NCBI RefSeq assembly: GCF_017104565.1
Contig: NZ_JAAGPD010000032.1
Location: forward strand, 1-64,000
Direction of reading: 5' to 3'
Origin: Paraburkholderia sp. Tr-20389
Lineage (GTDB): Bacteria > Pseudomonadota > Gammaproteobacteria > Burkholderiales > Burkholderiaceae
DNA: 64,000 nucleotides
Below the pieces are notes generated by a model. The model had not been told where the DNA came from. It was given only the letters and a program-made list of their open reading frames with translations, and did not search any database. Both the position numbers and the translations under genes were made by a program. This document shows, piece after piece, positions 13,812 through 47,496 of this stretch. Each line of letters opens with the position of its first letter. The stretch's first letter is position 1.

Positions 13812-14807
13812 ATGAACGAACCTTCCCTCGACGGGTTTGCTGTCGAACAGCTGATTCAAGGCTTTCGCTCACCTGAACTGCCGCAACTCAAGCCCGACCA
13901 GGCAACCATCGAAGCCGCAGACCGCAAGGTCCGGCATTGGACGAGCGAAGTTGCCGGTACGTTGAAACCAGGCTCCGATGTGCATCGGAGCGAGATGTGC
14001 CGGATGTTTCGCGAGACGTTCAGTCCGTACCGCCCGTCGGTCCTCGATTGGCCACAGCTGGCGCCTGACGCACTCGGGCGGATCGTTGCTCTGCCGATCT
14101 GGGACATCGCCGTGCAGACGGAGGGCAGGGCCCGGCTGCGCATGGCGGCGTACGCAGGCACCATCAGCGAGCCGGACGTACGGGACGCACTTGCGCTCAA
14201 TGCATGGGAAGAGAGCCGCCACAAGGAGGTGCTTTCGCGGATGGTGGCTGCATACGGCATTCCGCTCGCGAGCGAAGCACCGTACACATATCCAAAGGAT
14301 GCTGAATGGGCTTACCTGGTCACGGGTTACAGCGAGTGTATCGACAGTTTCTTCGCATTCGGCCTATTCGAAGTTGCCAGACGCTCGGGGCTGTTCCCAC
14401 CTGAACTCGTCGAAACTTTCGAACCAGTAATACAAGAGGAATGTCGCCATATCCTGCTCTTTGCAAACTGGGCGGCATGGCATCGGGCGAAGCTCTCCTG
14501 GTCGCGGCGCATTCGCTTCGAGTTAAAGGTGGCCGCCGTGTGGGCGTTTCTGGTGTGGGAACGATTGCGGCTTGCTCAAACACTCGATGCCGATGGCAAG
14601 GAGCACAAGCAGGATAACAACTTCACCATAAACGGTGCGCAGTCTTTGTCATCCGTGAAGGTGGATTTGCGCGAACTCATGGCGTTGTGCCTTGCCGAGA
14701 ATGAGCGCCGTTTTTCCGGCTATGACCCGCGATTGCTGCGTCCCGAAACGATCCCGAAGATCGTTGGATTTGCGCTGCGTTTCATGCGCTCAGAAAAGAC
14801 TAGCTGA
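13812..14807 (+). CDS. Ferritin-like diiron protein between hopanoid genes
   Basis: 331 residues from the ATG at 13812; a TTG 33 bases upstream is less likely. Two EExxH motifs, EESRH (about residue 136) and EECRH (about 215), lie on predicted helices about 80 residues apart. This is the spacing of ferritin-like or diiron oxidase four-helix bundles. No signal peptide is present; a hydrophobic helix follows the second motif (KVAAVWAFLVWERL). It sits between hpnL and hpnJ on the same strand, so it may act on hopanoids or membrane lipids, but this is inference and no named enzyme was recognised. Confidence 0.75.
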   Translation: MNEPSLDGFAVEQLIQGFRSPELPQLKPDQATIEAADRKVRHWTSEVAGTLKPGSDVHRSEMCRMFRETFSPYRPSVLDWPQLAPDALGRIVALPIWDIAVQTEGRARLRMAAYAGTISEPDVRDALALNAWEESRHKEVLSRMVAAYGIPLASEAPYTYPKDAEWAYLVTGYSECIDSFFAFGLFEVARRSGLFPPELVETFEPVIQEECRHILLFANWAAWHRAKLSWSRRIRFELKVAAVWAFLVWERLRLAQTLDADGKEHKQDNNFTINGAQSLSSVKVDLRELMALCLAENERRFSGYDPRLLRPETIPKIVGFALRFMRSEKTS

Positions 14808-14832
14808 CACTTTGTCGAATGCCACGTGGCCT

Positions 14833-15174
14833 TCAAGCGTCTTCTTCTATGAGTACGCCGGCGTTGCGAATCACTCGCAGGTAATTGGCCGTATCACCAA
14901 CTGCAGCGGTGGCCTGCTCTGCCAGTTTCTGTATGCGAGAAGACTTTTCGGCGTTTGCCATCATCGCCTGCAGGACATCTGACTGGGTAAACCCACGCGC
15001 ACTCGCCACCTCGAGGACCGCGACCAATATGCGCCGTGCCGCTGCGCGCGCCTCCTCCGAAGCCGCAGGTGCGCGATACGCAAGAAAGCCTGCCATCAAC
15101 AGAAACTCGGTCGGACTGATGCGCTGGCCATTTCCAACGGGCACACCCGCGGTAATGCCTGGACTTTGCGTCAT
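14833..15174 (-). CDS. Small helical protein of unknown function
   Basis: 113 residues from the ATG at 15174, preceded by AGGAGGGG; the longer in-frame start at 15222 has no comparable site. The sequence is mostly helical and hydrophilic, with EEARAAARRILVAVLEVASA and FTQSDVLQAMMANAEKSSR. It has no signal peptide or TM segment. It converges with the diiron gene (26-base gap). No family was recognised. Confidence 0.6.
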   Translation of the reverse strand: MTQSPGITAGVPVGNGQRISPTEFLLMAGFLAYRAPAASEEARAAARRILVAVLEVASARGFTQSDVLQAMMANAEKSSRIQKLAEQATAAVGDTANYLRVIRNAGVLIEEDA

Positions 15175-40200: not shown

Positions 40201-40483
40201 CGGATACACCAGCGCGAGCGTGCCGAATCTGATTACTTTGTGAAGTCTCCCGCGCTGTCCTAGACTCGGATTGAGTAGCCTTTACCCGCGGCGATTCTTT
40301 GGCGGTGGAATTCACTGTTAGATCAACAAGCCGTCATGGTTCCCGCGACGTGCATTCGCGGCGTCGGGAACCGAAAAGGCTCCCGCATGACAGCGCTGGG
40401 AGACCAACCCCGCTGATTGTGATCGCTTGCAATCGTTGTCCGCCGCGCGGATACCCGCGCGGCAAACTGCGAGGAGGCATGTG

Positions 40484-41644
40484 ATGCTCACGCCGATTCC
40501 CCAACGCCCATACCCCCGAGAGTTGCTCGACGTTCTGATTCGCGCCGGGCTCATAGCGGTGCTCGCGGTCTTCTGCTTTCGCATCTTCGCCCCATTCCTC
40601 AATCTCATGGTCTGGGCGTTGATTCTTGCGATCACGTTGTACCCGCTTCAGGTCAAACTCCGGGGAACGCTCCCCGGCAAGGATGGCCTGATCGCGACGC
40701 TGATCATCCTCGCTGCATTTGCTGTCATTCTCGTGCCGACCTACCTTCTTGGCGTCGCGGTCGCCAATTCGATAGAGCGTGCTATGGCCGTTTTCAAAAG
40801 CGGCAGCTTCCACATTCCGCCGCCCGCCGAATCGGTGGCCGCGTGGCCGCTCGTCGGCCAACGGGTGTACGACTTCTGGGCGCAGGCCGCAAACGACATC
40901 ACGGGTCTCGCGCAGCGTTTCGCGCCCCAGCTCAAGGAAGGCGGTCTCGCGCTGCTTGGCACGGTCACGGGCCTTGGCGCGGGGCTGCTGGTGTTCTTCA
41001 TCGCCCTGATCGTCGCGGGCATCTTCATGGCGTATGGGGAGAAGGGCTATCGCAGCACGGTGCAGATTGCTTCACGCATCTCCGGACCGGAAAACGGCCA
41101 GCAGATCGCCGACCTGTGCACGGCGACCATCCGGGCCGTGGCCCAGGGCGTGGTCGGGATCGCGTTCATCCAGATGCTGCTGATCGGCATCGGCTTCGTC
41201 ATGATGGGTATTCCCGGCGCGGGTCTGCTCGCGCTCGCCGTACTGTTGATCGGCATCATGCAGCTACCCGCGACCTTGATCACGGTTCCTGTCATCGCCT
41301 ATGTGATCGTCACCGAGGGCGTGAGCACGGCCACGATCATCTTCTCGGTCTACGTTTTCGTCGCGGGACTTGCCGACAATGTGTTGAAGCCCCTGTTGCT
41401 CGGGCGTGGCGTCGCGGTGCCGATGCCCGTGGTGCTGATCGGAGCGCTTGGCGGCATGGTGACGGGCGGCGTGATAGGTCTCTTCATCGGTCCCGTCATG
41501 CTTGCTGTGGCTTACCAGCTGTTCTGGCGGTGGGTGAAAGAGCAGCCGGACCCAGCTGCGCGTGTGCAGGAAGAGCCACGGCAGTTCAGACCGCAACGGC
41601 AGCCCGGGCCGCGACAGATTCAGCATCGCCACCGGCACCCATGA
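40484..41644 (+). CDS. AI-2E family transporter (PerM-like permease)
   Basis: 386 residues from the ATG at 40484, with GAGGAGG upstream. About eight TM segments; the domain opens with LLDVLIRAGLIAVLAVFCFR and contains FIQMLLIGIGFVMMGIPGAG and FVAGLADNVLKPLLLGRGVA (about 300-319), the conserved family end. The C-terminal tail is Gln/Arg/Pro-rich. Family members export small molecules or exchange ions; the AI-2 role is proven for few. No partner genes. Confidence 0.87.
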   Translation: MLTPIPQRPYPRELLDVLIRAGLIAVLAVFCFRIFAPFLNLMVWALILAITLYPLQVKLRGTLPGKDGLIATLIILAAFAVILVPTYLLGVAVANSIERAMAVFKSGSFHIPPPAESVAAWPLVGQRVYDFWAQAANDITGLAQRFAPQLKEGGLALLGTVTGLGAGLLVFFIALIVAGIFMAYGEKGYRSTVQIASRISGPENGQQIADLCTATIRAVAQGVVGIAFIQMLLIGIGFVMMGIPGAGLLALAVLLIGIMQLPATLITVPVIAYVIVTEGVSTATIIFSVYVFVAGLADNVLKPLLLGRGVAVPMPVVLIGALGGMVTGGVIGLFIGPVMLAVAYQLFWRWVKEQPDPAARVQEEPRQFRPQRQPGPRQIQHRHRHP

Positions 41645-41773
41645 AGCCCGGTGTAGGCGAGGCCGCCCTCGCGCTGCTCGCGAAGGACGCCTGTGGTGGA
41701 GGTGGTGGTGCCTTGGCAACCTGTTGCTGGCAGCTAATGCAATGTCGCGTCGTCTACCTTGAGTCGAGGCCAT

Positions 41774-42454
41774 ATGAGCACCATCACACCCGTCGGGCAC
41801 GCTGAACGTGAACAGCGTGAACCGATTCTGAATACCGTCGATCGGGTCTGCGAATTGTGTTTTGGTCTGTTCATGGCGCTGACGTTCATCGGCGCCGTGA
41901 AGGCCGTCTCCCCCGGCGACGACGCCGGGTACAAGATGTTCTTCGCTGCACTCGGGTGCAATCTCGCCTGGGGCCTCGCCGACGCCGTGATGTATCTCGT
42001 CCGCACGCTCGCCGATCGAGGACAGCGCCTGAAACTCGTGACGACCGTGCGGCAGGCGGGAGACCCAGCCGTCGCCGTGCGTGCGCTGCGCGACGCATTG
42101 CCTGAGAGGCTGGAATCGCTTGTCGAAGACGCTGACCTCGAACGGATTCGTGCGCGCCTCGCGACCGTGCCGACGCTGCCGGCCCGAGCGAACTTCGTGC
42201 TGGATGACTTCGTCGGCGCGATCGGTATCTTTCTGCTCGTCGTGCTGGGGACGTTCCCGGTCGCGGTGCCGTTTCTCGTCATCCACGATCTGACGACGGC
42301 GCTTATCGCCTCGCGCGTGCTCACGCTCGTGATGCTGTTTATCGCGGGATTTGCACTGGGGCGCTACACCGGCGCGGGAGCGATGAAAGCAGGCTTCGCC
42401 ATGATCGCGGTTGGCATTGCGCTGACCATGGCAATCATCGCGATAGGTGGATGA
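41774..42454 (+). CDS. Four-TM membrane protein, distantly VIT-like
   Basis: 226 residues from the ATG at 41774; a TTG 15 bases upstream is possible. TM segments lie at about 31-48 (LFMALTFIGAVKAV), 57-76, 145-170 (AIGIFLLVVLGTFPVAVPFL) and 175-226 (two helices). Between them is a charged helical domain (about 78-140) with QAGDPAVAVRALRDALPERL. It resembles proteins loosely assigned to the VIT1/CCC1 group, but the metal-site residues of true VIT transporters were not seen. Function unknown. Confidence 0.65.
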   Translation: MSTITPVGHAEREQREPILNTVDRVCELCFGLFMALTFIGAVKAVSPGDDAGYKMFFAALGCNLAWGLADAVMYLVRTLADRGQRLKLVTTVRQAGDPAVAVRALRDALPERLESLVEDADLERIRARLATVPTLPARANFVLDDFVGAIGIFLLVVLGTFPVAVPFLVIHDLTTALIASRVLTLVMLFIAGFALGRYTGAGAMKAGFAMIAVGIALTMAIIAIGG

Positions 42455-42681: not shown

Positions 42682-43824
42682 TCAGCGTCGCGAGGAGGTG
42701 AGGTCTTCCTCGATGAAACGCAGTATCGCTTCCGTCAGTGCCTCACGAGGGTAGAGGTTTTGCGTAACGAAGAGCGAGCCGACAGTCGGATGTGTCCGTG
42801 CGATCGGTACGGCAACCGCCCAGTGATCCGCATTCAGATAACCGAGCAACGTGCTGCCGGGTACTACCTGATCGTAGAAGATCATCTGGCTGTCATTGCG
42901 GGCATCGATGCGGGCCAGCTTTTCGTAGCTCGACTCGAGGATCGACGAAATGCGTTCCGGCTGCGGAAACGTCACGACCGAGTAATAGCGCAGTCCAGTC
43001 GGAAGCGGGTTTTGCGCGAGCCATGCCTTGCGCGTCGCAGGGCGGAGACTCTGCACCGCACCTCCGTCCCCTTCCTCGCAGGTTGCACCGGGAAAATACT
43101 GAAGCAACTCGGCGTGATATTGCTCGACGTCGTTGGCGAGTGGCGACCCGCCTATTGCACCGGCCGCGCTGACCATCGCCGCCACGCGGGGCCGGATTTC
43201 CGGGTACGTGACGAGCGCTTCGAGGATATCGGGTGCACCCTTCGAATAGCCGATCAGCACCAGGCGCGGTGCCCCGGGTTCCAAAGGCATGGCCATGATC
43301 GCATCGCGAATCTGTCGGGCGTTATGGGTCGTTCCGGATAGTGCATCGACGGAAAGCAGCATCGCGTCATAGCCGAACTGGCGCAGGTGCGTCACGACCG
43401 TGCCGGGCGGATTCAACCACGGCTTGAAGCATTCGTATCCGACACCGGCGACGATCGCTGCGACGAGGTGTTGCCCTGAAGGGCCCAGATCCACGGGCTG
43501 ACCCGTGCCGTCCGGCTCGGTGCCCACACGCGTCAGTGCCTCCTCGCAGGGTCGATAGTCGGGTAGCTGCGCGCCGTGGGCCTTCAGCACCGCGCAGTAG
43601 ATTTCCCGGAAGCGGCCCCTTCTGTCCTGCGCGCCTGCATAGGACGCCGGAACCAGCACGAGAGGAGGCGTATCGGTCGAGTAAGAAATCAGCGGCTTCG
43701 TGGCGCAAGCACAGAGCGCAAGACATAACGCAACCGTCATGCGGACCGGCATGGCGCGGACTGAATGCCATCTCCCGTACGCCGGACCGCACCGTGGTTC
43801 AGCGACCGGTTCGCTTGCGCTCAT
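42682..43824 (-). CDS. Lipoprotein alpha/beta hydrolase
   Basis: 380 residues from the ATG at 43824. This start has GGAGG 9 bases upstream and overlaps the preceding gene by 26 bases; a start at 43752 would place the signal peptide at the N-terminus but lacks a ribosome site. A lipobox follows a hydrophobic helix ([16 protein letters not shown]). The serine nucleophile lies in [13 protein letters not shown] (GxSxG), with the likely catalytic His in [11 protein letters not shown]. It is third in a lipoprotein operon after two LssY_C genes. It may be an envelope esterase or lipase. Confidence 0.78.
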
Positions 43825-45064
43825 CGTTTCCGTCCTCCACGTTGACAGCACTGCCCGGCCGCAAATACGGAACCCAGTCGAGGAACTCTACGTCCGACAG
43901 CTTCAGTGGCCGCGTCGCGACGAACAGCACGATGCGCAAACCGTCCGTGTGATATGACGCGGAATCGAGTGTCGTACGCGGGTGGGACGGCGGTGCCGGC
44001 CCGACGCCATACACGAATCCAAGCCTTTCAAGTCCGCCCGAATACATCATGTCCTGAATCAACAGATTCCTGGCCTCGTCGACATCCGCCTGAAGCGTGA
44101 GGCTTGCCCCGCTGTTCGACACGAAGCGTCCCCCGACAGGCCGCCCGATCTGTGCCACGTAGACAGGCTCCTTCCTGAACTGTATCGGTGTCAGCCACAC
44201 GCGTATCCAGGTCGCCGGCGCCCTCTTCGGCGCCTGCTTGCGCAGGACGACATCCGGACCGCGTCCATAGAGGCGCTGAGCCAGATCGAAATCCCGCTTG
44301 TTGCCGTGGTAGCCACGTCGTACGAATGCCGCGCCGATATTGTCGAGCGTGCCGACGAATACCGCATTGAGCGGATCGCCCTGGTTGGCCCCGCTTGCGT
44401 CCGTCGCGCAGCATGGCATCCGTTCGAGTGCCGTTCTCAGGGAGGCCAGGTCGTCATAGTTCGTGATGTCGGAATCGGGATAATGGAACTGCGTTTCCTC
44501 GTAGAGCGGATTGCCGGCGTCGTCGGGCACTGGCAAAAACAGAGAGAACGGAATCAACGTCCTGTCCGCAAACAGATCGATATTGCAGAGTTTCGTGCCG
44601 CGATCCGGGTTGGTGAAAAGCATTCCCGCGTGCGTCGCTCCCGGCGGAATCGGATTTTTGAAGCCGAGCTTGTCGAAATACTCATCCATGCGTTCGTTTG
44701 TCGCGCCACCGAGCATCGCGTGCATCGACCATGCGACTTCACGCGGAGAAAAGTACCGCGGGTCCGTTCCTGAACGCAGCAACCATAACGATTGGGAGGT
44801 TTCGTTCACGACCTCGATCCATACCGGCTGTATCCCGATGGCATCGAGATCGGCTCCGATCATGCGCTTGCTGTCGTCTGTGCCGAGCACTGCCGCGCTG
44901 ACGCGTACGCCATGGCTGGTCGCCGTCACTGCACGCGCGCGCAGTGGTGCATCGTCTGCGTCTGTTGGGCGCTGCCATGTCGAACAACTGGCAACGACGA
45001 ACAGGAGACCGATCCAGCACAGCGGCGATCGAAACAGACGATGCAACCGCTGCAACGCACTCAT
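43799..45064 (-). CDS. LssY_C-domain lipoprotein 2
   Basis: 421 residues. Signal peptide with lipobox LLFVVASCS (Cys about 27). The N-terminal beta-rich region includes [20 protein letters not shown], matching the paralogue upstream. The LssY_C-like domain begins near [20 protein letters not shown] with [19 protein letters not shown], then [22 protein letters not shown] and [19 protein letters not shown]. Its ATG overlaps the upstream stop (ATGA), so the two paralogues are translationally coupled. The role of the domain is unknown. Confidence 0.82.
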
Positions 45065-46350
45065 CGCCGCGCTCCTGCGCTATCGACCGCGTGAGCGCTA
45101 TCCGCGTTCCACTCGAAAACGCGGATCCCTGAGAGCGACGTAGGCTTCTGGTCGAACACGAGCACCATCCGGTATCCGTCGGTGTAGTAGGGGTCCGTCG
45201 TCAGGTTTTCCCGTGGCGCACTTTGTGGCGCAGGGGCGGTCGCCTTCACCAGCCCGATCTGCATCAGACTTTGCGAATAGGCCATGTCTTCCGTGAGCGC
45301 GCTCCGGGCCTCGTCGACATCGGGATCGATCTTGTGGGTGGTGAATGTAGGTGTGTGAGTCGTCAGTCGCGTGCCGATATCCCGACTGATCTGACCGACC
45401 CAGACAGGCTTGTCGTGATACTTCATGGGGCTTAACCAGAGCCGCAAATGATTGCGCTCGTGAATCGTGTCGCGCGCTTTCTGCAACGCAAGATCCTGTG
45501 GCCGTCCAAACAGGTAGAGGTCGCTCACCGGAGCGTTGTCGTACCGCTCTCCCGCTAGCGCGGCAGTCACCATCTTCATGATGGCGCCCGACCATTTTTC
45601 CTCCGTCGGCGTCCATCCGCGCCGCACGAGTGCGGGAAAGGCGTCGTCCAGCCCGCCCACGACCACGAGATTGAGGGGATCGCCGTTCTTCGTACCGCCC
45701 TCATTGGTGGCGCAGCATGGCAGGGCTTCGAGTGCTGTCCGGAAGGCCGCGTCATCCGTGTAATTCACGATCGACTCGCGTGGATAGACTTCGCGCATGA
45801 ATACTTCGCTCGTCTTGTAATCGCCCTGGAAGCCCGGCACCGGTACGAAGAGCGAGAACGTCGTGGCGCGCCGGCTCGCAACCAGATCGACCTGAACCAC
45901 CTTCACGCCCTCCTGAAGGTTGGTCAGCACGAAGCCGGAGGTCGTCTGGCCGGGCAATACAGGGTTATGGAACGCAAGCTCGCGAAAGCGCTCGTCGAGT
46001 CCTGTGGGGACGTCGCGAGGGTTGCCATGGATGTAGGCCTCGGCGGCCTCAGAGGCGGGAAGAAAGTTCGGATCGACGCCGGGCGAGAGCAGGAAATAGC
46101 GGTGGTCTCCCGTATTCTGGACTTCGATCCAGACAGGCTGGATTCCCTTTCTTGCAAGTGCAACGCCGTAGAGAGCCGCGCTTTCGTCAGCGGAAAGCGC
46201 GGCAGCGGATACGCGCAAATGATCCTCGCTACGAGTGACCGTCCGGGTCCTGTAGCTGGACGCGGATGTGTTCGCCGAAGGCGCGGCGCAGCCGGCAACG
46301 GCGCACGCGACGGCTAACGCAGCAAGCAGTCGAACAAGCATTCCTTTCAT
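45061..46350 (-). CDS. LssY_C-domain lipoprotein 1
   Basis: 429 residues from the ATG at 46350; the longer in-frame reading to 46479 lacks a signal peptide at its start. Lipobox [32 protein letters not shown] is followed by the LssY_C domain: LPCCATNEGGTKNGDPLNLV, then VVGGLDDAFPALVRRGWTPT, SDLYLFGRPQDLALQKARD and HLRLWLSPMKYHDKPVWVGQ. Domain order and many motifs are shared with the next gene, so this is a tandem duplication. It is probably anchored in the outer or inner membrane facing the periplasm. Confidence 0.84.
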   Translation of the reverse strand: MKGMLVRLLAALAVACAVAGCAAPSANTSASSYRTRTVTRSEDHLRVSAAALSADESAALYGVALARKGIQPVWIEVQNTGDHRYFLLSPGVDPNFLPASEAAEAYIHGNPRDVPTGLDERFRELAFHNPVLPGQTTSGFVLTNLQEGVKVVQVDLVASRRATTFSLFVPVPGFQGDYKTSEVFMREVYPRESIVNYTDDAAFRTALEALPCCATNEGGTKNGDPLNLVVVGGLDDAFPALVRRGWTPTEEKWSGAIMKMVTAALAGERYDNAPVSDLYLFGRPQDLALQKARDTIHERNHLRLWLSPMKYHDKPVWVGQISRDIGTRLTTHTPTFTTHKIDPDVDEARSALTEDMAYSQSLMQIGLVKATAPAPQSAPRENLTTDPYYTDGYRMVLVFDQKPTSLSGIRVFEWNADSAHAVDSAGARR

Positions 46351-46582
46351 CGCCGATTCCAGGTGGTACCACCAGAATGGACCCGTCCGGAGAACCAGCG
46401 CAAGGCGCAGGTAGCGCGGTCGAAAACCTTCGACAGCCATCTGGCTGCAGGCGGCCTGGCGTGCTGAATACCGCCGCATGTCAACGGTCGAGAGCCGAAC
46501 TGATTCTCTCGGGACGCAGACAGAAACGACGCGTTGGCTGCTTCATTGCAGTTCGGGTAGTTCTACGAGTCTGCAATGCCGC

Positions 46583-46906
46583 TTACAGACAGGTGTTCAC
46601 TGAACCCGTCGCGCTTCCGCCCTCGCCACGAAATCCAACCCATGAGCCAGAGCCGTCCGGCCGTACGACAGCCGACGCACCGCCTGGCGGTTGCTGGCCG
46701 GGTACATAGACATTGAACGCGCGGTCACCTGCGAGTTCATGTTGCAGATAGACTGTCTTGCCGGAGCCATTTGCCCAATTGGTAGCAATGCACTGAGCAA
46801 CCATCGATGGCGAGTGTTGGCTCTTTCCGACGGACTGAAGGTTCTCTTGAGGTGGTGTCGCACACGCGGCAAGCGTCAGCACGGATCCGATCAGAAGATA
46901 TTTCAT
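46583..46906 (-). CDS. Small lipoprotein
   Basis: 107 residues from the ATG at 46906 with GGAGGT upstream. Lipobox MKYLLIGSVLTLAACATPP. The mature part is polar, with MVAQCIATNWANGSGKTVYL and a Gly/Ser-rich end with one Cys. It resembles small Burkholderia lipoproteins of unknown role. It starts 26 bases after the SYLF gene ends, so they probably share an mRNA. Confidence 0.72.
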   Translation of the reverse strand: MKYLLIGSVLTLAACATPPQENLQSVGKSQHSPSMVAQCIATNWANGSGKTVYLQHELAGDRAFNVYVPGQQPPGGASAVVRPDGSGSWVGFRGEGGSATGSVNTCL

Positions 46907-46932
46907 TTCGGTATTACCTCCTTCGATTGAGT

Positions 46933-47496
46933 TCACCCGTTCAATTCATCATCCTTGTAATACTTGGTTCCCTTGGCTGTGAGTTCTACTGCGAGACCTT
47001 TGTCGGTGAGCTGATAGAGCCAAACACCCGGCCCCACAGCTATCGCTCCTTCATATGAGCTTCCCTTATCGTTTGCTTTTGCCGCAGCAGTTGCCTGTCC
47101 GCCGAAAGTCCACCCTGAAGCGATAAAGTCATTCAGTGCGCTTACGTTCTCGAACACCCAGACCTGCCGGAATTTCTTGACGCCTATGCCCAACCCGGCC
47201 TGCACCTCGGCCATCTTCATGTAGGTTGCCGACTTTGTTTTGTTGTTGACGGCAATGCCTTCCCCTGTACCACTGCCTGCAAGGAGAATCTTCATTCCGA
47301 AGTTGCTGAATGCAGCGTAACCAGCCGCCGACTGCACCGCTTTGCGCGCCGAAGGTTGCGCCTTATAGAGCGCATCAAGTGTCTTGCGGACAGCGGCCTT
47401 TACCTCGGCCTGCTTTTCCGTCTTGCTTGAACCTAGCACCATGCGTGGAGCGACGAACATGGAGGTCAAAATAATCATCACCGCTCGACGGTTCAT
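46933..47496 (-). CDS. SYLF-domain (Ysc84-type) lipid-binding protein
   Basis: 187 residues from the ATG at 47496 with GGAGAG upstream. A short signal peptide (MIILTSMFVAPRMVLG) is followed by the SYLF domain: AAGYAAFSNFGMKILLAGSG, TYMKMAEVQAGLGIGVKKFR and FIASGWTFGGQATAAAKAND. SYLF domains bind phosphoinositides in eukaryotes; the bacterial role is probably membrane-related. It is followed by a small lipoprotein and, 232 bases later, the LssY_C operon on the same strand. Confidence 0.85.
   Translation of the reverse strand: MNRRAVMIILTSMFVAPRMVLGSSKTEKQAEVKAAVRKTLDALYKAQPSARKAVQSAAGYAAFSNFGMKILLAGSGTGEGIAVNNKTKSATYMKMAEVQAGLGIGVKKFRQVWVFENVSALNDFIASGWTFGGQATAAAKANDKGSSYEGAIAVGPGVWLYQLTDKGLAVELTAKGTKYYKDDELNG

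Follow-up and report, generated by a model that had tools for sequence, protein, structure and literature searches.

The carboxylesterase MGS0156 is described as an enzyme with lipase activity that hydrolyzes polylactic acid (PLA) and polycaprolactone (PMC5341072, PMC11236915) and that could not be placed in any of the known hydrolase families (PMC5341072). Its catalytic triad was reported to consist of Ser232, Asp350 and His373, with a lid held by a disulphide (PMC11236915). In other proteins, as seen in one scanned example of each type, the LssY_C domain (PF14067) is fused to VTT/DedA or to VTT-PAP2, which places it in lipid-phosphate settings; DedA proteins are described as putative flippases of undecaprenyl phosphate, a carrier that may be dephosphorylated by PAP2 fusions (PMC10127716). 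Among the matches listed for LssY and LssY_C in the open-licence literature there was no functional study of the domain; they concerned mostly unrelated words, the Legionella lss locus and DedA/PAP2. Here, we analysed a window of 64,000 nucleotides from Paraburkholderia sp. Tr-20389 (contig NZ_JAAGPD010000032.1, positions 1 to 64,000), in which two genes for LssY_C lipoproteins, A and B, are coupled to a gene, H, for a homologue of MGS0156. The A-B-H arrangement is real, conserved and not random. New are the coupled module and the pairing of an intact with a degenerate LssY_C protein, while the parts are partly known. The locus thereby provides a native genetic setting for a relative of a plastic-degrading esterase and a tangible starting point for studying LssY_C, which in other proteins is joined to domains of the lipid flippase and phosphatase types, and the contrast between A and B names the exact residues to test.

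A conserved trio of overlapping genes

The trio consists of the following features:
45061..46350, reverse strand: gene A, canonical LssY_C lipoprotein, 429 residues (PF14067, E 3.1e-52)
43799..45064, reverse strand: gene B, degenerate LssY_C lipoprotein, 421 residues (PF14067, E 8.4e-11, partial)
42682..43824, reverse strand: gene H, predicted lipoprotein serine hydrolase, MGS0156-type carboxylesterase, 380 residues (5d8m, E 1e-67)
45061..45064, reverse strand: ATGA overlap of four bases between the stop of A and the start of B, in 17/17 complete loci
43799..43824, reverse strand: overlap of 26 bases between the end of B and the start of H (14 bases in most relatives)

The initial annotation had placed the three genes and both overlaps correctly and had proposed that they are tightly coupled, which agrees with the constancy of the overlaps across all 17 complete loci compared (the window, 12 loci from named genomes and four plasmid loci). 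The four-base overlap is always formed by the ATG of B and the stop of A, and H has an in-frame ATG 13 bases (14 loci) or 25 bases (three loci) ahead of the end of the B stop; this pattern is more than chance, and the coupling of the genes is well supported. A later ATG of H at 43752 was rejected as the start because the upstream in-frame ATG within B is kept in all 17 loci. The lipoprotein signals were recovered as well, a lipobox-like motif being present in 17/17 sequences of each of the three proteins, as judged by a loose pattern of our own making.

Conservation of the gene order outside the strain, which had been set beforehand as a refutation test, was found: among the named genomes 15 loci contain relatives of A, and 12 of these have A, B and H in order, in Caballeronia, Paraburkholderia, Burkholderia, Cupriavidus and Azospirillum. 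The remaining named loci are one that is cut by a contig end (L039) and two with an A-like gene without H, in Pseudohaliea (L041) and in a Planctomycetaceae metagenome-assembled genome (L044). H is present in seven plasmid records, all of which also contain A. Eight plasmid records match A along 80% or more of its length, and these seven are among them; the remaining one, from Thiodictyon (L049), holds a lone A-like gene. In the A-like proteins of L044 and L049, the N-terminal domain contains an additional hydrophobic segment of ~27 residues.

Among 145 Paraburkholderia genomes, A was matched in 34 (E up to 1e-20) and H in 36, each at full length in 32; H is represented by fragments only in G453, G475, G479 and G558, and A only by a piece of its N-terminal domain in G475 and G500. 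The 32 genomes with full-length A are also those with full-length H, and the other 113 have neither at full length. Of the 35 loci with full-length A, 33 are followed by H at no more than 1.6 kb downstream and in the same orientation, G461 and G486 each contributing two of them. Two loci deviate: G528 has a second A-B pair that lacks a nearby H, and in G023 the locus is split between contigs. At the order level, at least 5/300 genomes, including that of the window, have a relative of A (E up to 1e-25), with a full trio in G703 and a tandem pair without H in G738 and G802. At the class level there are matches in at least 7/369 genomes, again including the window, with trios in G1023 and G1130 (H truncated at a contig end), a B-H pair lacking A in G1149 (an assembly that is 72% complete), and lone A-like genes in G1164, G891 and G920 as well as in G1023 besides its trio. 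H relatives are rare across the phylum (at least 8/398 genomes, of which at least four at E 1e-20 or better: the window, G377, G059 and G391). The counts for order, class and phylum are minima, as no more than five (order) or four (class and phylum) candidates per genome were scored. The unit is thus conserved but patchy.

In G1149 the B-H pair (L158, 7232-9641) directly follows genes that on visual inspection resemble those of ATP synthase subunits, and the genes after it look unrelated, which suggests an insertion or rearrangement there. Four short proteins of ~208-237 residues (L051:7884-8597, L093:7674-8300, L094:7605-8234 and L095:7465-8178) match the B-type N-terminal domain only and are 49-61% identical to B; two genomes with such proteins, G500 and G475, have no full-length A. 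The gene immediately upstream in L051 is annotated as a glycine-zipper protein, and a similar-looking one is present in L093.

The pairwise protein distances of A, B and H correlate with r 0.79-0.87 over 17 loci (the maximum of 2000 permutations was 0.47), as expected from co-inheritance or from plain shared descent, and the subtrees of A and B show much the same branching. Since the flanks vary from locus to locus, the trio would seem to be transferred as a unit.

An esterase homologue and an unequal LssY_C pair

H was called a serine hydrolase in the initial annotation, which missed that it belongs to a biochemically characterised esterase group. It has no Pfam, NCBIfam or PADLOC family match, and a phmmer search against PDB sequences identified it as a clear homologue of the solved carboxylesterase and polylactide depolymerase MGS0156 (5d8m, metagenomic; E 1e-67, 232 bits, query residues 39-376). 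Ser232 corresponds to chain position 158 in 5d8m, and this offset places Asp350 in an NDG motif and His373 in an NADH motif. By alignment, the predicted triad of H is therefore S194 (GYSKG), D311 (NDG) and H334 (NADH), in register with MGS0156 by sequence only; D318 was rejected as the triad aspartate because the mapping leads to D311. The second refutation test set beforehand, on whether a catalytic triad forms, is thereby answered at the level of sequence. The three residues are invariant in 17/17 aligned H rows, window included, as are C132 and C249, which align with two cysteines of MGS0156 that may form its lid disulphide. The prediction that H is an ester hydrolase is well supported.

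A and B are paralogues with 37-38% identity, and LssY_C is the sole Pfam family above the cut-off in both, with no lipase-chaperone match; neither A, B nor H has a match at the cut-offs in NCBIfam or PADLOC, and none of the five proteins of the window locus matches the PADLOC anti-phage defence models at E up to 1. The initial annotation overlooked a difference in kind between the two LssY_C proteins. A contains the full domain (177.4 bits against a curated cut-off of 25, E 3.1e-52), whereas B scores 42.3 bits against the same cut-off (E 8.4e-11) and covers only positions 73-186 of the 188 of the profile. In A, an N-terminal immunoglobulin (Ig)-like beta-sandwich (about residues 37-174) precedes the LssY_C domain (about 195-400); the structure models reach a predicted local distance difference test score of 77.3, and of 80.9 for LssY_C alone.

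For the comparison of residues, 17 A rows (including three from lone A-like genes), 14 B rows and 21 other LssY_C domains were aligned. The locus L113, itself a trio, was set aside. Of 33 loci, 11 gave no match to the A/B profile and were dropped with their residues unchecked (L118-L124, L002, L013, L014 and L016); most of these are long open frames, and the third LssY_C place of the genome from which the window comes is among them. R299, H301, R303, W305, G319, D324, H339, D346 and R349 are present in 17/17 A rows and 21/21 other domains. In B, H301, D324 and H339 are all gone in 14/14 rows, D324 being replaced by Pro in each, while R303, W305, D346 and R349 are still there in 14/14; the window B has W, P and L at the three sites, and the B domain is shorter by about 21 residues. 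By eye, a histidine stands at position 342 in eight and at position 338 in three of the 14 B rows, and at neither in the window B. The later B rows (G703, G1130, G1023, G1149) likewise lack the three residues, giving 18/18 in total, and these residues are present in the later A rows of trios (G703, G1130, G1023; two have Leu at 349) and in 7/7 lone A-like proteins examined (L041, L044, L049, L156, L157, L159, L160). B is thus homologous to LssY_C but degenerate, and A is canonical.

B is under purifying selection despite the loss of the site. The ratios of non-synonymous to synonymous substitution rates (dN/dS; 11 pairs per gene) are 0.11-0.28 for A, 0.11-0.24 for B and 0.09-0.19 for H, although dS reaches or exceeds about 1 in most comparisons with the window. 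Moreover, in the tandem pair without H of G738 and G802 one copy is canonical and the other has Glu, Glu and Tyr at the three sites. In the trees this pair stands apart from the A/B split, so that two origins of the intact/degenerate pairing are favoured, not proven; a single degenerate clade, a group named after the tree had been seen, was not rejected (p of the approximately unbiased test 0.17 and 0.083).

Neighbouring genes

Around the trio, the window contains the following genes:
46583..46906, reverse strand: small lipoprotein gene; matched by tblastn in 6 of the 15 named loci (L031-L045), in three of these six on the strand opposite to A
46933..47496, reverse strand: SYLF/Ysc84 protein (PF04366, E 3.8e-6); its sequence cluster occurs in 9 of 22 stretches examined
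40427-41644, opposite strand, just beyond the operon: AI-2E family transporter; cluster in 5 of the 22 stretches, window included
41759-42454, opposite strand, just beyond the operon: VIT-family membrane protein, weak match

The first two genes lie upstream of A, as initially annotated, with a gap of 232 bases between the end of the small lipoprotein gene and the start of A. Their presence stands; as core members of the unit they were rejected on the counts listed and are rather occasional neighbours. The SYLF protein matches the phage family phrog_34572 over nearly its full length (E 3.1e-45), from which SYLF relatives seem to be carried by phages, and the small lipoprotein shows a weak match to phrog_914 (E 2.3e-4). 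A gene of a DUF2092 cluster was found near the trio in 4/22 stretches (L046 at 14144-14947, L038, L040 and L042) from Paraburkholderia, Cupriavidus and Azospirillum, the Pfam match being checked for L046 only.

In a gammaproteobacterium (L061:6166-9364), the gene for an MGS0156-like lipoprotein, a distant homologue of H (29% identity across the matched segment), overlaps a gene for a calcineurin-like phosphoesterase lipoprotein by eight bases, and an adjoining lipoprotein on the opposite strand has endonuclease/phosphatase and acid phosphatase domains. By its domain content this locus would again pair ester and phosphoester enzyme types.

Possible function and relation to known systems

With a probability of about 0.5, the trio is a translationally coupled envelope module in which a surface or periplasmic hydrolase of lipid or polyester esters works with a dedicated pseudo-LssY_C partner and an intact LssY_C protein. 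The module would move horizontally and be located in the envelope. We infer that H is anchored in the outer membrane because it has a lipobox with a residue other than Asp at position +2; as a lid-type serine esterase of the MGS0156 group it would cleave acyl or polyester ester bonds. B, in which the conserved polar site is missing, may be a dedicated non-catalytic partner of H, i.e., a scaffold, a folding aid or a presenter of the substrate. A would probably provide a second, phosphate-directed activity or a binder, in which H301, R303, D324, H339, D346 and R349 act on or bind the polar portion (probably with a phosphate) of the lipid-like substrate shared with H. This division of labour within a putative complex is favoured because LssY_C occurs in lipid-phosphate settings, here beside a lipase-type enzyme, and because L061 combines ester and phosphoester enzymes. 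However, the only other relative found among 79 genomes of the family to which L061 belongs has no such neighbour in its list of open reading frames. The envelope complex and the cell-wall substrate suggested in the initial annotation stay hypothetical.

A bolder and rather doubtful version would make LssY_C an unrecognised envelope enzyme domain, likely a phosphoesterase of phospholipid or polyprenyl-phosphate type with the site R-x-H-x-R-x-W / D / H / D-x-x-R. The module would then unite this enzyme, a lid-type lipase and a pseudoenzyme copy of LssY_C that has become the lipase's dedicated partner in a two-step machine for dismantling lipids at the cell surface, the intact/degenerate pairing having possibly arisen twice.

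Lif foldases serve lipases of Burkholderia and Pseudomonas, and LssY_C might accordingly be a non-enzymatic lipid-binding domain, A and B together acting as a Lif-like carrier or foldase for the esterase. The tandem coupling to a single secreted lipase-like enzyme, the maintenance of B after loss of its polar site and the binding-type Ig-like sandwich of the first domain speak for this possibility; it nevertheless appears unlikely, since the polar LssY_C residues kept in every A row and every other domain look more like a catalytic or ion site, neither protein matches a lipase chaperone in Pfam, and A-like proteins are found without H. The open-licence literature on pseudoenzyme or foldase lipases gave nothing useful.

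Less probable still is that A, B and H are merely transcribed together within mobile islands of envelope-type genes and serve separate pathways. The flanks do differ between loci, with various membrane-type genes in them (AI-2E, DUF2254, DUF2092, SYLF and carbonic anhydrase), and the pair occurs without H in G528, G738 and G802; however, the overlaps are fixed, full-length A and H coincide in the same Paraburkholderia genomes and are missing together from the rest, and B is retained with H without A in one genome.

Type VI Tle effectors carry no export signal of their own, and a Tle/Tli-like system, in which a lipase effector is secreted and tandem lipoprotein genes confer immunity, is very improbable: the combination of a GxSxG hydrolase with two paralogous lipoproteins is typical of such systems, but H carries its own lipobox-like signal in all 17 loci, A and B are conserved and not diversifying, and no VgrG, PAAR or other type VI part is named among 36 annotated features of two plasmid stretches (whose tables are incomplete and include hypothetical proteins; the scan covered these two loci).

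As a summary, the locus shares features with four described systems. With type VI Tle/Tli pairs it has in common the GxSxG hydrolase beside tandem paralogous lipoproteins, and it differs in that H itself is a predicted lipoprotein. Similarly to Lif-type lipase foldase operons, a secreted lipase-like enzyme is coupled to a dedicated envelope protein, whereas A and B belong to unrelated families by the Pfam scan. Compared to the other PF14067 proteins (LssY_C alone, VTT-LssY_C and VTT-PAP2-LssY_C), A has the full domain and the conserved residues; A and B add the Ig-like N-terminal domain and the lipobox, and they form an intact/degenerate pair. A term search in a paper on PLA enzymes that cites MGS0156 (PMC12060274) returned no LssY, operon or genomic-context words in the text searched. 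Finally, H resembles MGS0156 over residues 39-376, with the triad in register and two common cysteines, both proteins being outside Pfam; it differs by the extra cysteines C77 and C93, invariant in the aligned rows, and as a lipoprotein gene that is coupled to two LssY_C genes.

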